From Acidobacteriota bacterium (GTDB lineage: Bacteria; Acidobacteriota; Vicinamibacteria; Vicinamibacterales; CAVVIG01), in contig QHWB01000033.1 in the NCBI GenBank assembly GCA_003222395.1, positions 1 to 64,000 of the forward strand: a DNA stretch of 64,000 bases. The letters are read 5' to 3'. Positions 16,385-39,436 of this stretch are shown piece by piece. Under the pieces are notes generated by a model. It saw only the letters and a list, made by a program, of their open reading frames with translations. It had not been told where the DNA came from and made no database searches. Each line of letters starts with the position of its first letter. Position 1 is the first letter of the stretch. The position numbers and the translations under genes are program-made.

Positions 16385-16736
16385 GGGGGCGACACGGTTT
16401 CGACGGGGGTAAGGACTCGCGGGATGCATGCCGAGCGCCATCGCCTCGTAAATCCGGTGGACACAACGTAACTGCGAACACGCAGCTCGCTCTCGCTGCT
16501 TAATTAAGTAGCGACGTCCTCTCCGTCTTCGCCTTCGGGGCGGAGAAGGATGTCATAACAGAAGGCTGGTCGTCACTGGCGGTTCCGACGGGTGACGGCG
16601 AGATTCATCGGAGCTAGCGACCGCCGGTTTCCGTCGCTCTTCGACGGCGGTCGCGAACCTTCAAGGGCGGCTACGCATGTAGATTCCTGCGACGGCGTAC
16701 TCTCGGACGCGGGTTCGACTCCCGCCGCCTCCACCA
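16385..16736 (+). ncRNA. ssrA: Transfer-messenger RNA (tmRNA)
   Basis: About 352 nt. The 5' end GGGGGCG pairs with CGCCTCC before a genome-encoded ACCA, giving a 7-bp acceptor stem with one G-U. The T arm gcggg-ttcgact-cccgc is canonical and the 5' GACACGGTTTCGACG block is the standard tmRNA signature. The tag reading frame is 16474-16503: GCG AAC ACG CAG CTC GCT CTC GCT GCT TAA, encoding ANTQLALAA, followed by a second in-frame TAA-like triplet region. The tag ends in the LALAA degron expected for ClpXP/ClpAP. With SmpB and alanyl-tRNA synthetase it rescues ribosomes stalled on mRNAs lacking a stop codon. A near-consensus promoter lies 46 bp upstream. Confidence 0.97.
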
Positions 16737-32921: not shown

Positions 32922-34004
32922 TCAGTAGTAGAAGAACTGCAGCTGCAGCGTGAACTCGTTCTGTGTGGCCGCGCCGGTCGGATCGATGTGCATGAACGCG
33001 ATCTTTATGTTCGCGTTGTGCGCCGCCCACCAGTAATTCGCGCCAAACGACCAGCGCTTCTCGTCGCCTCTCGTCGCGTCGACGACGTCGCGCGTGGCCA
33101 CCTGCAGCACCGGCGTGAGCTTGAGCGCTGTGATCAGATATCCGAGCTCGAGCAGCAGATCGTTCTGCTTCGGCACCGTCGTGAGCGTCGTGCCGCCGTC
33201 GAACCGGTTGTAGTCGACCTGCAGCGTCACGGCGCCCGGACCCGCCGGATAGTCGACATAGAGGTCGCCGTCGTACGCGTGATAGTCGCTCTGGGAGTCG
33301 AATGCCGCGGCCACGGCGGCGACTCTTCGTTTGCCGACGTACGTGCCGGTATAGAAGAACCCGACCTCCGTCTCGAGGAAGTTGTACATCGCGCGCCCGG
33401 CGTAGCGGAACGCCCGGTGGGAGCGCGCGTCGCGCATGCCCTGGAACACGCCGAGACGATATTCGAAATGGTTCTTCGCGAAGTACCCCTTCGCCTGGAA
33501 TCCGGTGTCGCGGCCCGTGGACGACTGCGTCGGCCCGCTCGCCGTGAACGTGTACGCGCCGTAGTCGATCGGCAGGAGCGTCGCCGCGCTCTGCACGCTG
33601 TTCCGCGAAAACGGCACGAACATCAACCCCGCGTCGACGGCGAACGCATCGCTCGCTTTGAATTCACCGTACGCGTCCTGGATGATCGTCGTCGACGGAG
33701 TGTTCTTCACGCCGTTCACCGTCCGGCCGAGATTCGCCGAATCGGTCTCGACGAAGAACGTCACGTTCTTCGCCACCTGGCCGCCGAACAACAGGCGGAC
33801 GCGCCGGATGAAGAGGTTGTTGGTCTGGGCGTCGGTACCTGGATCTTCGAGGCTGTCGGCCTGAACCTGTCCGAGCACGCCGAATCGAAGGTTGACGTCG
33901 TCGCTGACTTTGATGGTGGCCTGGGCGGCGGCGGGCGCGGCGGCGAAGATTCCGATGGCAGCGGTGAGCGCGCCGCTGGCGAGACGAGCGGTTGGGCGTC
34001 TCAC
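32922..34004 (-). CDS. Phosphate-selective porin O/P-like outer-membrane protein
   Basis: About 360 residues if the GTG at 34004 is the start, 5 bp after the cytochrome b stop codon; it then begins with a signal peptide (RRPTARLASGALTAAIGIFA) ending AAPAAAQ. Longer starts would overlap the previous gene. Body: VNLRFGVLGQVQAD, LFIRRVRLLFGGQVAKNVTF, FVETDSANLG, then alternating barrel strands, ending in the aromatic FTLQLQFFYY terminus. This matches the OprO/OprP porin family. Being last in the formate dehydrogenase cluster, it may let formate or another anion cross the outer membrane; this is inference from position only. Confidence 0.8.
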   Translation of the reverse strand: MRRPTARLASGALTAAIGIFAAAPAAAQATIKVSDDVNLRFGVLGQVQADSLEDPGTDAQTNNLFIRRVRLLFGGQVAKNVTFFVETDSANLGRTVNGVKNTPSTTIIQDAYGEFKASDAFAVDAGLMFVPFSRNSVQSAATLLPIDYGAYTFTASGPTQSSTGRDTGFQAKGYFAKNHFEYRLGVFQGMRDARSHRAFRYAGRAMYNFLETEVGFFYTGTYVGKRRVAAVAAAFDSQSDYHAYDGDLYVDYPAGPGAVTLQVDYNRFDGGTTLTTVPKQNDLLLELGYLITALKLTPVLQVATRDVVDATRGDEKRWSFGANYWWAAHNANIKIAFMHIDPTGAATQNEFTLQLQFFYY

Positions 34005-34008
34005 AGCG

Positions 34009-34773
34009 TTACTCGTGCGGCCGGCGATCGCCGCTCGCGCCCTGAGGCTGACGCGCGCGAGCGCGCTCGGAATCGGTGTGCGCGTCACGGCCGGCCGCGC
34101 GGCGGTACCACGCCGGATGATGCGTCCAGGCCCACCGCTGCTCCACCGTTCCACGCGTCATCGCCTGGAACGTTCCGGGCTGCGCAGCGGTCCCTTCGTA
34201 CAGGTGTACGATGAACCCGATCAGCATCACAATCGCCGCGATGTCGTGCAGCACGTAGCCGATGTCGACGGCCGGCCGCCCGAACGTTTTCGGGAACCAC
34301 ATCGGAATGCCGGAGATGACGAAGACGATCGCGCTGATCACGATCGCCCAGAAGTACACTTTCTGCCCGGCGTTGAAGAAGTCGACGTAATCCGGCTCGA
34401 CCGCGTCGCTGTTCGTAACGTACTCCCGCACACGCCGCGTCCAGCGGCGGTCGTCGGCGTTCCAGATCATCGGCCCGAGCCAGTTCAGGAACTGAAACGC
34501 GAAGACCGCAACGAACCCGAGGCTGAACCACGGATGCAGCAGGCGCGTGTTTGCGCCGCCGCCAAAGAGCGGTGTCAACCAGTGGTACAGCCAGGGCGAG
34601 TAGATCGCGAAGCCGGACAGCAGCGCGAGGATGAAGAAGACCGCCACCGACCAGTGCAGCACTCGCGTGTAAACGGGGTGGCGCACCAGCTCGCCGGCGC
34701 GCACGACCGTTCGCCCGTACGCGCCGACGCGGCGCCGAACCGACTCGTCGAACCGTTCAATCGCCGTGTTCAT
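34009..34773 (-). CDS. fdnI: Formate dehydrogenase cytochrome b (gamma) subunit
   Basis: 254 residues from the ATG at 34773 (GAGGT upstream). Four membrane helices are visible: HWSVAVFFILALLSGFAIYS, PWFSLGFVAVFAFQFLNWLG, YFWAIVISAIVFVISGIPMW and IGYVLHDIAAIVMLIGFIVH. Conserved histidines RVLHWS, LLHPW, VLHDIA and FIVHLY are the expected ligands of two b haems. It anchors the enzyme to the membrane and passes electrons from the ferredoxin subunit to quinone. An Arg-rich, repeat-like C-tail is odd. It follows the ferredoxin subunit by 77 bp. Confidence 0.88.
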   Translation of the reverse strand: MNTAIERFDESVRRRVGAYGRTVVRAGELVRHPVYTRVLHWSVAVFFILALLSGFAIYSPWLYHWLTPLFGGGANTRLLHPWFSLGFVAVFAFQFLNWLGPMIWNADDRRWTRRVREYVTNSDAVEPDYVDFFNAGQKVYFWAIVISAIVFVISGIPMWFPKTFGRPAVDIGYVLHDIAAIVMLIGFIVHLYEGTAAQPGTFQAMTRGTVEQRWAWTHHPAWYRRAAGRDAHTDSERARARQPQGASGDRRPHE

Positions 34774-34850: not shown

Positions 34851-35795
34851 TTATTCCGAAACGCGGTCAGCACCGCCCGGCGCCGGCTTCGCGCCAATGC
34901 CTGGCGAAGGGCCGGGCCCACCGAGGCCCGGCGGCGGCTGCGGCTCCTTCGGACCCTGGCTCACGTAATGGAAGAACGCGACCGGCGCGGCGAACAGGCT
35001 CAGCACCAGCGCGATTGGTTTGGCGAACCGCTTCCATACCGTGAAGGTCGGCGGAATTTGCGGATTCGCCGGCAGGCCGCCGTACAGCTCCGGCTTCGTG
35101 ATGTCGTGCAGCACGTAGATCACATGAGTGCCGCCAATCGACGGCGGATCGTACACGCCTGCATTCGGAAACCCTGAATGATCCCGCAGTTGCTTCGCAC
35201 GCGCGTCCGCGAGCGCGCGCATGTCGCTCTTCGTCCCGAACTTCAGACAGCCGGTGGGACACGATTTGATGCACGCGGGCTCGAGTCCCTGACCGACGCG
35301 GTCCGAACACAAGGTGCACTTGTAGACCTTCTTCGTCGCGCTGTTGAACTTCGGGATGTCGAAGGGACAGCCCGAGACGCAGTACTGGCACCCGATGCAG
35401 TTTTCCTGCTGAAAATCGACGATGCCATTGGTGTACTGAACGATCGCGCCGTCCGCCGGACATGCGCGCAGGCACCCGGGATCCTCGCAGTGCATGCACT
35501 GGTCCTTGCGCATCAACCACATCTGCGTGCCGTCGTCGCGCTGATGCTCGTGGAACTTGATCAGGTTCCAGTAGTTCCACTGAGTGGCCGGCATCGTCTG
35601 GTACGTGTTGTCGAAGGTGGTCTGCTGGAACGGCATGTCGTTCCATTCGACGCACGCGACTTCGCAGGCCTTGCAGCCGATGCAGGTCGTCACGTCGATG
35701 TACTTGCAGACTTCTTCTTCGCGCTGCACGCCGCGGCCCGGAACGCCGCCGGGATGCGCCGAGATGGCTCTGATTTGAAGCATGCCGGTCGGCAT
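34851..35795 (-). CDS. fdnH: Formate dehydrogenase ferredoxin (beta) subunit
   Basis: 314 residues with GGAGG 6 nt before the ATG. Four [4Fe-4S] clusters are indicated: CIGCKACEVAC, CMHCEDPGCLRACP, CIGCQYCVSGCPFDIP and CTLCSDRVGQGLEPACIKSCP. A C-terminal membrane helix (PIALVLSLFAAPVAFFHY) anchors it, then a Gly/Pro-rich tail. It relays electrons from the molybdenum/tungsten subunit to the b-type cytochrome. It begins 10 bp after the catalytic-subunit stop, as expected for an operon. A short fragment of a second, related ferredoxin lies upstream of the cluster at 39199-39436. Confidence 0.93.
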   Translation of the reverse strand: MPTGMLQIRAISAHPGGVPGRGVQREEEVCKYIDVTTCIGCKACEVACVEWNDMPFQQTTFDNTYQTMPATQWNYWNLIKFHEHQRDDGTQMWLMRKDQCMHCEDPGCLRACPADGAIVQYTNGIVDFQQENCIGCQYCVSGCPFDIPKFNSATKKVYKCTLCSDRVGQGLEPACIKSCPTGCLKFGTKSDMRALADARAKQLRDHSGFPNAGVYDPPSIGGTHVIYVLHDITKPELYGGLPANPQIPPTFTVWKRFAKPIALVLSLFAAPVAFFHYVSQGPKEPQPPPGLGGPGPSPGIGAKPAPGGADRVSE

Positions 35796-35805
35796 GATGC
35801 GCCTC

Positions 35806-38800
35806 CTAAGCCTTCTCGAGCTTCACCAGGAAGCCCTTGAATTCGGGCGTGTATGCGTTGGGATCGACCACGGTTGGCGACAGCAGATTGACACCGGTGA
35901 GCGCGGTGATTCCCTCGTCTTCCGCGATGCCGCGATACCCCCAGTGGATCGGGATGCCGATCTGGTACGTCTTCTTGCCGTCGATCAGCATCGGCTTGAT
36001 GCGCTGTGTGACCATCGCCTTGGCGACGTACGACGCACGCGCGCTTGTCACCTTGACCTTGTCGCCGCCTTTGATGCCGAGATCGTTGGCGAGGTCGTGC
36101 GGGATCTCGACGAACGGCTCCGGCACGAGCTGGACGTTCATCGGGTTGTTCTTTGTCCAGTAGTGGTAGTGCTCGGTAAGCCGATACGTCGTGCAGACGA
36201 TGGTGAAGCCCTGGTCGGGCGCGCCGAACTTGTCGAGATCCGTTTTCATCCGACGGACCACAGGGTTGTTCGACTGCTTCGGATGGAGCGGATTGAGCAG
36301 CGGGCTTTCGATCGGCTCGTAGTGCTCGGGGAAAGGACCTTCAGCGAATGCGGCGAGAGGCGCGAACAGCCGGCCGATTCCTTCGGGATTCATGATGAAG
36401 GGTCCCATGTGATCGGACGGCTTCGAATCGACCTTGAAGTCCGGCACATCGTTGCCGACCCACCGGCCGCCCGCTTCGTTCCACCAGATTTGGCGCCGCT
36501 CGGCGTCCCAGGGCTTGCCGGACGGATCGCACGAGGCGCGGTTGTACATCACGCGGCGGTTCGCCGGCCACGACCACCCCCAGTTCGGATAGATGCCGAG
36601 GCCGGATGGATCCTCGGTGCCGCGGCGGGCCGTCATGTTGCCGGCCTCCGTCCACGAGCCGCTGTACAGCCAATTGCCGCACAAGGTCGAGCCATCGTCG
36701 CGCAGGAACGCGAATCCCGGAAGCTGCTGTCCCGCCTTGATCACGGTACCCGTCGCCGGATCGGTGACGTCTGCGAGCGCCTGACCGTTGATCTCGCGCG
36801 CGACCTCTGCGAGCGACGGATTGCGCGGCTGCGTGTACGGCCAGCGCGCGTTGAGAATGGGATCCGGGAACTTGCCGCCCTCCTTCTGGTACAGCTCGCG
36901 CACCTTCAAAAAGACTTGCGCGAGGATGTCCTGATCGAGCCGCGCCTCGCCCGGCGGCGGCAGCGCGACGTTCTTCCATTGCAGCCAGCGCGCCGAGTTG
37001 ACGAAGTTGCCATCCTTCTCGGCGAAGCCGGCGCACGGCAGCCGATAGACGGTCGTCTGAATCTTCTTCATCTCGTCGCCGGTCGTGCCCGGCGCCTTCC
37101 AGAATTCGCTCGTTTCGTCGGGGTAAATCTCGCCGACGACGAGCCAGTCGGCCTTCTTCAGCGCCTCGATGTTCTTCTTCGTGTTCGGACCAATCTGCAC
37201 GCCGTTCATGCCAATCGCGAACATGCCCTTGATGTGGCCCGCGTACATGTCGTCCCAGATCTGGGTCCACGCGTGATTGCGATCGATCTTCGGCAGGTAG
37301 TGGAACGCCCAGTCGTTCTCCTTCTTCGCCGCGTCGCCGTACATGGCTTTGAGGAACGAGACCGCGAACTTCGGCGTGTTCGACCAGTAGTTGTACGAAT
37401 CCCATTCGCCCGGCTTCGACGACGTCGGTGTGGTTCGCTTCAGGAACGTCGCGAGGTCGGCGTCGTCCGGGTTCGGCATCTTGAGATAGCCGGGCAGGAT
37501 GTCGAACACGCCCGCCATGTCGGTGGCGCCCTGGATGTTCGAATGGCCGCGCAGCGCGTTGACGCCGCCGCCGGCGCGCCCGACGTTGCCGAGCAGCAGC
37601 TGCAGCATCGCCGCCGTTCGAATGATCTGCGTGCCGAATGTATGCTGGGTCCAGCCGACCGCGTAGATGATCGTGCCGGCTTTCGTCATGTCGCCGTCCT
37701 TGCGGATCGACGTGAAGAGATCGGCGGCCTTCAGGAACTGATCCTTCGGGATGCCCGTGATCCGCTCGACCATCTCAGGCGTGTACCTCGAGTACTGCGT
37801 TTTGAGGAGCTGGAATACGGACCGGGGATGCTGGAGCGACAAGTCGTAGGCGACGTTCGGCGGAAGGATCGCCGGCGCCGCTGGTTTGCTCGCAGCCGTT
37901 CCGGCGCCGTTGACGCCGGCCGGACCCTGCGCCGCGTACCCGAGGTTCGCAGCCGAGCCGGCGGACGCGCCGGCCGTGCCGGTCGACGCCTCGGTGCCGG
38001 CGTGCCCAGTCATGTTGCCGCCTTCCTGATAATTCCAGGTCGACTTGTCGTAGATCTGTGTCGACGGATCGAACCCGGAATACAGGCCGTCATCGGGAAG
38101 CTTGAAGCCTTCCTTCACGATGAACGCGGCGTTCGTGTAGTTGACGACGTAGTCGTGCGCGATCCGGCCGTTCTCGATCGCGTAGTTGATCAGGCCGCCA
38201 AGAAACGCAATGTCGGCGCCCGCCCGAATCTGCAAAAACAGGTCGGCGCTCGCGGCCGTCCGCGTGAAGCGCGGATCGACCACGATCATCTTCGCGTTGC
38301 GCTGGAGCTTCGCTTCAATCGGCCACTTGAAGCCGCACGGGTGGTTCTCGGCCGGATTCCCGCCCATGATCAACATCATGTCGGTGTTCTTGATGTCGAT
38401 CCAGCCGTTCGTCATCGCGCCGCGTCCGAATGTGGGCCCCAAACTGGAGACCGTTGGCCCGTGTCAAACCCGGGCCTGGTTCTCCAGGTACACCACCCCC
38501 AGACTGCGCATCGTCTTGACGACGAGATAATTGAACTCGTTCGTGTCGGTGCAGCCGCCGGTGAACGCAATCCCTTCGCAGCGATTGACCGTCCGCCCGC
38601 GCTGATCCTTCTCGACGAACGTCGCGTCGCGCGTCTTCTTGACGCGGTCGGCGATCTCGGCGATCGCCTGATCCCAGGAAATGTCTTCCCAGCGATCCGA
38701 TCCCGGCCGCCGCACAGCCGGCTTGAGCAGCCGCCGCTCGTTCACGATGTCCTGCTCGAGCGACGCGCCCTTCGGACAAAGCGTGCCGCGATTGATCGGA

Positions 38801-39045
38801 TGGTCGGGATCGCCTTCGACGTGGACCACCTGAGGGATGGCGTTCTTCGCCCGGTCGCCGAGCGTGTGGATGATCACACCGCAGCTGACCGAACAGTAGG
38901 GGCACGTGCTGCGCGTCTCGGTTGTGCGCTGAATCTTGAGCGTCTTCGCTTGCGCGTAGGCGGGTCCGACATCGAATCCGAACGCCGACAGGCCCGCTCC
39001 TCCGATGACGGTGGTCTGGATGAACGCTCTTCGGGAGATGTGCAT
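35806..39045 (-). CDS. fdnG: Formate dehydrogenase-N-type catalytic subunit, selenocysteine-containing, Tat-exported
   Basis: One 1079-residue protein read through an in-frame UGA (38464-38466, residue 194). A conventional reading splits it into a 193-residue N-terminal and a long C-terminal piece. Residues 1-30: twin-arginine signal SRRAFIQTTVIGG. [4Fe-4S] site: CPYCSVSCG, closing Cys in LCPKG. Then NQARV-UGA-HGPT, the exact context of Sec in E. coli FdnG, followed by PTFGRGAMTNGWIDIKN, VVDPRFTRTA, LLLGNVGRAGGGVNALRGHS and the C-terminal YRLTEHYHYWTKN. It oxidises formate to CO2 at a Mo/W-bis-molybdopterin site in the periplasm. Bases downstream of UGA fold as a SECIS. Selenocysteine tRNA and SelB genes are not in the window. 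Confidence 0.95.
38426..38463 (-). promoter_or_regulatory. SECIS-like hairpin directing selenocysteine insertion
   Basis: Immediately 3' of UGA, the mRNA has GG-U-CUCC (38452-38446), a loop AGUUU (38445-38441) and GGGGCC (38440-38435). Two G-C pairs, a bulged U, then four pairs to the loop. E. coli fdhF/fdnG SECIS elements have the same plan (GG-U-UGC, loop, GCA-CC), with the bulged U required for SelB, and a similar distance of 18 nt from UGA to the loop. The flanking CACGGGCC also resembles CACGGCCC downstream of the E. coli UGA. Confidence 0.8.
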
Positions 39046-39198
39046 GAGCAGCCTCCCAACTTAGGCAACCCGGTAGATGCTCTCGAGCGACGACACCTTG
39101 CAGAGTGCAATCATCGCGCCGACGTGCGCGTGTTTCAACTCTTTCCTTTACACGTACGCGCAGGCGCCGATCTGGTCACCGTTTTCGTTCACGCCAAC

Positions 39199-39436
39199 TC
39201 ACTCGTACGGCGTTGCTGACAGGCCGTGCGCGCTTGTCATCGGCACGCGAACGCCGCCGACCAGCATCACTAGCGCGGCCGGCGTCAGGCGCACGTATCC
39301 GGCGTCGGCGGCCGCCCGGCCGAATGTGGCCGGAAATCACAGCCCGATGGTGCCGTCGCCGTGCTGGTGCTCGCGGAACTTGATGAGGTTCCAGTAGCTC
39401 CACCACGTGCGGCATTCGGCGCTCTGTCGCGTTTCA
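39199..39436 (-). pseudogene. Remnant of a second formate-dehydrogenase-type ferredoxin gene
   Basis: On the minus strand, just after the amidohydrolase stop, one frame reads WWSYWNLIKFREHQHGDGTI, closely matching QWNYWNLIKFHEHQRDDGTQ of the intact beta subunit at 34851-35795. It meets a TGA after IGL, and the same frame then continues FPATFGRAAADAGYVRLTPA, ALVMLVGGVRVPMTSAHG, LSATPYE before another stop at 39199. No cluster-binding cysteine motifs survive. The C-terminal piece is unidentified. It is a decayed duplicate or a fusion of remnants. 39046-39198 contains nothing I can assign except the fdnG upstream region. Confidence 0.55.

Follow-up and report, generated by a model that had tools for sequence, protein, structure and literature searches.

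A putative selenocysteine-containing formate dehydrogenase of an acidobacterium and a linked synonymous codon switch in its SECIS hairpin

The formate dehydrogenase locus

The window, by which we mean the whole stretch of 64,000 nucleotides that was analyzed (acidobacterial contig QHWB01000033.1, assembly GCA_003222395.1), carries on its minus strand a formate dehydrogenase alpha-subunit gene with an internal UGA codon, followed by two genes for partner subunits and a porin-type open reading frame (ORF). The features on which our argument draws are as follows.

35806-39045, minus strand: alpha subunit of an fdnG-type formate dehydrogenase, 1079 residues long when the UGA counts as selenocysteine (Sec); TIGR01553, 1kqf
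38464-38466, minus strand: UGA codon, predicted Sec at residue 194, aligned with modified residue X of 1kqf
38411-38469, minus strand: SECIS element, Rfam SECIS_3 (RF01989), 64.6 bits against a gathering score of 63; synonymous constraint at codons +3 to +10
38435-38452, minus strand: SECIS upper hairpin, model columns 18-35 of the Rfam structure line; linked change at columns 24 and 33
34851-35795, minus strand: formate dehydrogenase beta subunit (Fe-S, membrane-anchored); TIGR01582, 345.3 bits, cut-off 334.7; PF09163 Form-deh_trans
34009-34773, minus strand: formate dehydrogenase gamma subunit (cytochrome b), ATG at 34773; TIGR01583, 154.9 bits, cut-off 115.85
32922-34154, minus strand: Porin_O_P-type ORF after gamma; 43.5 bits, cut-off 20.9

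Under the standard code, the alpha-subunit gene is listed as two ORFs, one of 193 aa (38464-39045) and one of 878 aa (35806-38442, TTG start), and its frame is open for the full 1079 residues once the TGA is taken as a residue. The initial annotation had placed this in-frame UGA where FdnG has Sec and had described homology running unbroken through it, and our comparisons bear out both statements. The codon (38466-38464) stands in the context NQARV-UGA-HGPT, and E. coli FdnG (1kqf, 1089.7 bits) aligns through the site as NQARV-X-HGPT, where we take X to be the Sec of the E. coli enzyme; the in-frame UGA thus coincides with a homologue's Sec. In a profile search, the read-through protein scored 1351.9 bits against TIGR01553 (FdnG), whose curated cut-off is 814.2, and it belongs to that family. 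An ORF of 1145 aa (35782-39219, plus strand) lies antisense to the entire alpha gene and probably owes its existence to high G+C codon use.

The beta and gamma genes, the partner subunits of an FdnG enzyme, are the next two after alpha; each exceeds its profile cut-off, in agreement with the earlier description of the ferredoxin and cytochrome b genes as intact. The frame of the porin-type ORF is likewise open, and it scored 94 with the ExtI porin model, below the cut-off of 150. With GTG as its called start, the ORF shares 146 bases with the gamma gene; since this start falls within another gene, the true one is probably further down. Elsewhere in the window, a tmRNA gene lies at 16385-16736 on the plus strand (202.5 bits).

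The locus resembles E. coli FdnGHI in that alpha aligns nearly end to end with 1kqf, with the same context at the UGA site, and in that beta and gamma of the same families follow it. It differs in an Ala/Gly/Pro/Ser-rich stretch of the window's alpha subunit (approximately residues 345-400; 37846-38013, minus strand), which 1kqf lacks. With one regular expression, its length was measurable in 64 of the 84 close homologues, at 25-107 residues; of 9 more distant homologues, 4 gave 13 residues. It resembles a rapidly changing surface linker. The structures 9qm0, 6sdr and others, which we take to be Desulfovibrio-type periplasmic Sec formate dehydrogenases, belong to the same alpha family; their Sec-labelled chains, at 878-884 bits, score below E. 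coli FdnG.

Selenocysteine machinery in the assembly

The assembly comprises 7741373 bases in 118 contigs and is 99.26% complete, with 2.97% contamination. The initial annotation had suggested a search of the genome for selA, selB, selC and selD and had regarded the absence of selB or selC as decisive against its reading; all four are present, on contigs other than the window's. SelA matched at 456.7 bits (a second match, at 47.8 bits, also lies over the cut-off of 22.8), SelB at 313.8 bits (cut-off 242.25), SelD at 344.1 bits (cut-off 125), and tRNA-Sec, with anticodon UCA, at 62.5 bits. A second Rfam tRNA-Sec match over the cut-off is classed as tRNA-Ser(UGA) by ARAGORN. The SelD gene (L010 1501-2433; G000:C26:9514-10446) has an in-frame TGA of its own at residue 11 of the matched stretch, in the context CAG-U-ASK, and SelD is likely a second selenoprotein of this genome.

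The TGA codon and the machinery among relatives

We examined 110 loci, 108 of which cover the UGA site. Eighty are named relatives, the best 80 of 207 encoding a relative in a genome scan whose peptide patterns excluded the UGA site, and all are Acidobacteriota by record origin; the other 30 come from the window's order and family. TGA occupies the site in 80/80 named relatives (best 80 of 207) and in 19 of the 28 other loci, the window's own among the 19, and a Cys codon occupies it in the remaining 9, which are distant enzymes of 26-33% identity. A close relative from another genus (G010) also has TGA there. Seven weaker alpha-subunit matches in relatives have one internal TGA each (G040:C27, G045:C4, G048:C23, G049:C69, G055:C11, G057:C9 and G007:C46); they may be further Sec-containing molybdopterin enzymes, or the TGA may be a plain stop.

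Among 60 genomes of named relatives (60 of the 80 loci), SelB was found at E <= 1e-60 in 56, in 55 of them over the curated cut-off. Of 60 genomes from the window's order and family, 20 hold a TGA gene (19 by alignment of the site, plus G011 from the locus rows), and at the thresholds chosen SelB was found in 15 of these 20 and tRNA-Sec in 15, versus 30 and 31, respectively, of the 40 genomes without a TGA gene. Since SelB and tRNA-Sec are common with or without the gene, their co-occurrence is not diagnostic in this order and family, and we set it aside as weak proof of Sec. Two genomes with a TGA gene (G032 and G047) yielded neither SelB nor tRNA-Sec at the thresholds used, which may be due to assembly gaps.

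The SECIS element

The stretch just 3' of the UGA scores over the gathering threshold of the SECIS_3 covariance model and spans the model from position 1 to position 59, its GGU...AGU core included. Model column n corresponds to window position 38470 - n, and the hairpin bases of interest are U20 (38450), C24 (38446, the third base of Ser +6) and G33 (38437, the third base of Gly +9). G26 and U27 lie in the apical loop in the Rfam model and in both of the helix registers considered below.

Free energy gave no comparable signal. The fold of the 59-nt element was no better than those of shuffled sequences (z = +1.00; 168 of 200 shuffles were at least as stable), and neither a 50-nt stretch (z = -0.47) nor the 38-nt stretch singled out in the initial annotation (38426-38463; z = -0.50) gained support over shuffles. 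The minimum free energy (MFE) fold of the window's element is also without the consensus upper stem carrying a bulged U. We rejected folding energy as an uninformative test for SECIS. The earlier claim that the mRNA after the UGA folds with a bulged U as in E. coli SECIS elements therefore stands as far as the covariance model goes, and was overstated with respect to energy and the MFE structure.

For the 18-nt hairpin of the window, the bulged form was calculated at -6.0 kcal/mol and the MFE form, in which U20 is paired, at -6.3 kcal/mol, with a U20 pairing probability of 0.73; this probability was 0.11 in a 44-nt context, where the upper stem itself rarely forms. A value of -7.0 for the paired form was set aside, as it includes a C-U mismatch. 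Because the MFE form pairs U20, the bulged U in the window's type of hairpin rests on the Rfam consensus and not on energy.

Synonymous constraint and a linked codon switch

We compared codon use across 84 close homologues, comprising the 80 named relatives (best 80 of 207) and L021-L024, of which L021 is the window; two pairs encode identical proteins (L023/L052 and L024/L051). Mean normalized synonymous entropy was 0.272 at codons +3 to +10 after the UGA, as against 0.628 upstream and 0.599 downstream. Several codons are fixed or nearly so: Thr ACG and Val GTC in 84/84, Ser AGT in 83/83 of those with Ser, and Leu TTG in 83/84. Such low synonymous entropy argues strongly for a function of the RNA.

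The third bases of Ser +6 and Gly +9 vary only together. TCC with GGG, the window's type, occurs in 39 of the 84 homologues and TCA with GGA in 45, and mixed forms in none (0/84). The normalized mutual information of this pair, 1.000, is the highest of 1275 pairs among 51 variable codons at conserved residues, and the runners-up reach 0.459 and then 0.238. The full set of TGA loci numbers 99, and the 15 outside the 84 consist of 13 of a C24/C33 kind plus L032 and L039 (C24/G33).

On a protein tree of 93 rows, from which six TGA loci with BLAST scores of <900 had been dropped, the TCA/GGA state requires 6 changes, at least 5 of them forced by well-supported branches. All five independent pairs showed both codons switching alike (p = 0.0625, the minimum that this number of pairs can give). 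A phylum sample of 396 genomes gave 5 matches to a pattern that fixes neighboring bases and misses divergent elements: 3 TCA/GGA, 2 TCC/GGG and 0 mixed. One match is the window and one is L093, leaving three new ones, two TCA/GGA and one TCC/GGG.

No column of SelB tracked the SECIS type in 50 near-full-length SelB sequences (25 per type, of 57 extracted), and we discounted the best column (0.86) because its value arises only via many different letters. Among the titles listed in literature searches on acidobacterial selenoproteins and on SelB and SECIS, none concerns the linked switch.

Selenocysteine as the best explanation for the UGA

We are highly confident that the product of the gene is the catalytic subunit of a membrane-anchored formate dehydrogenase of FdnGHI type, with selenocysteine as residue 194. 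As judged from sequence, the apparently split gene of this soil bacterium almost certainly makes one whole Sec formate dehydrogenase. SelB, loaded with Sec-tRNA(UCA), would bind the SECIS hairpin immediately 3' of the UGA and bring in Sec where translation would otherwise end, giving a single chain of 1079 residues. Together with beta (Fe-S) and gamma (cytochrome b), this chain would pass electrons from formate to quinone. The insertion of Sec, export by the Tat pathway, the cofactor and the reduction of quinone are all presumed by analogy with known FdnGHI; a motif noted by eye in the alpha subunit, SRRAFIQ, is the basis for the proposed export.

The Sec reading is supported by homology that continues through the UGA, by the SECIS_3 match, by SelA, SelB, SelD and tRNA-Sec(UCA), by TGA in all of the best 80 of 207 relatives and by the codon constraint; the coupled third bases of Ser +6 and Gly +9, a second UGA gene (SelD) and the occurrence of SelB in 56 of the 60 genomes of named relatives also count in its favor. 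Against it stand the lack of free-energy support, the nondiagnostic co-occurrence of the machinery, and a fragmented assembly with some contamination whose sel genes lie on other contigs. If the UGA were instead a true stop or an assembly error, and the gene a pseudogene or a Cys enzyme, the two separate ORFs of the standard code and a hairpin that folding energy does not support would be accounted for. An error or a stop would not be expected to recur at the same site in every one of those 80 named relatives, drawn from many assemblies, and in the closely related G010, which belongs to another genus, nor to come with a SECIS_3 match, a codon constraint confined to the neighborhood of the UGA and a full set of Sec genes, and we regard this explanation as very improbable. 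It is just as improbable that the UGA is read through by other means, e.g., by a suppressor tRNA or by reassignment of the codon to Trp or Cys. An open frame alone cannot tell which residue is inserted, but this UGA falls at the Sec position of FdnG in a genome with tRNA-Sec(UCA) and SelA, SelB and SelD, and the constrained stretch after it matches a SECIS model.

With Sec at residue 194, the gene itself is ordinary: it adds one more to the selenoprotein family that is most widespread in bacteria. In PMC1794560, FdhA is reported in 67 of 75 Sec-using organisms, FdhA and SelD are described as the most widespread bacterial selenoproteins, and Acidobacteria are named twice; on the first of these figures, a Sec formate dehydrogenase would be a common bacterial use of selenium. 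The locus indicates that this organism is able to read UGA as Sec and to produce a Sec formate dehydrogenase whose gene falls into two pieces under plain ORF calling.

Two possible helix registers of the hairpin

The linked synonymous switch matters more than the gene, and it is the part that merits follow-up. Columns 24 and 33 are exactly the bases that choose between two helix registers. C24 and G33 permit the pairs C24-G30 and C21-G33 and keep U20 in a bulge, as the Rfam structure has it; A24 and A33 break these two pairs and permit A24-U29 and U20-A33, in a seven-pair helix shifted by one base. The TCA/GGA hairpin was calculated at -8.5 kcal/mol in the shifted form versus +2.4 in the bulged form, whereas the two forms of the TCC/GGG hairpin lie close together, at the values given above for the window. 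In the 44-nt context, the mean pairing probability of U20 was 1.00 in 45 TCA/GGA rows and 0.30 in 41 C24/G33 rows. The 13 more distant C24/C33 rows, which are closer in sequence to the Rfam consensus, gave a high mean as well, 0.89, and this weakens the folding argument for two registers. The upper stem (pair 18-35) moreover reached a mean probability of just 0.10 in the C24/G33 rows, and we set the folding program aside as a weak judge of the bulge.

The SECIS_3 model, whose pairs 21-33 and 24-30 the TCA/GGA relatives break, is in line with the two registers: its gathering score was reached by 8 of 10 TCC/GGG loci and by 0 of 9 TCA/GGA loci. Individual scores were 69.7 for a TCC/GGG locus (L067) and 59.8, still a clear match, for a TCA/GGA locus (L127).

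We tentatively suggest that the formate dehydrogenase SECIS of Acidobacteriota may adopt two exclusive registers, one with a bulged U (C24-G30, C21-G33) and one shifted (U20-A33, A24-U29), and that lineages may have flipped repeatedly between them through linked synonymous changes; the shift of register is itself a matter of modeling. Were this so, the SelB of the phylum would have to tolerate a hairpin in which the U is not permanently bulged. Alternatively, RNA pairing may have no part in the switch, which could stem from inheritance, codon bias or gene conversion. The states do cluster on the tree (6 changes versus a shuffled mean of 31.2), the test of independent pairs has only five pairs behind its p value, and mixed codon forms are likewise predicted to fold, so that stability alone does not account for their absence. 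Such causes would nonetheless have to explain why no other codon pair comes near this one, why at least five switches are forced on well-supported branches with both codons moving in the same direction in every independent pair, and why the two columns are those that select the register. We consider this alternative rather unlikely.

In the review PMC8704476, the features given as conserved in prokaryotic SECIS elements are adjacent G and U, both unpaired, and a bulged U, while the 45 of 84 homologues of the TCA/GGA type carry a base that would pair the U described there as bulged.
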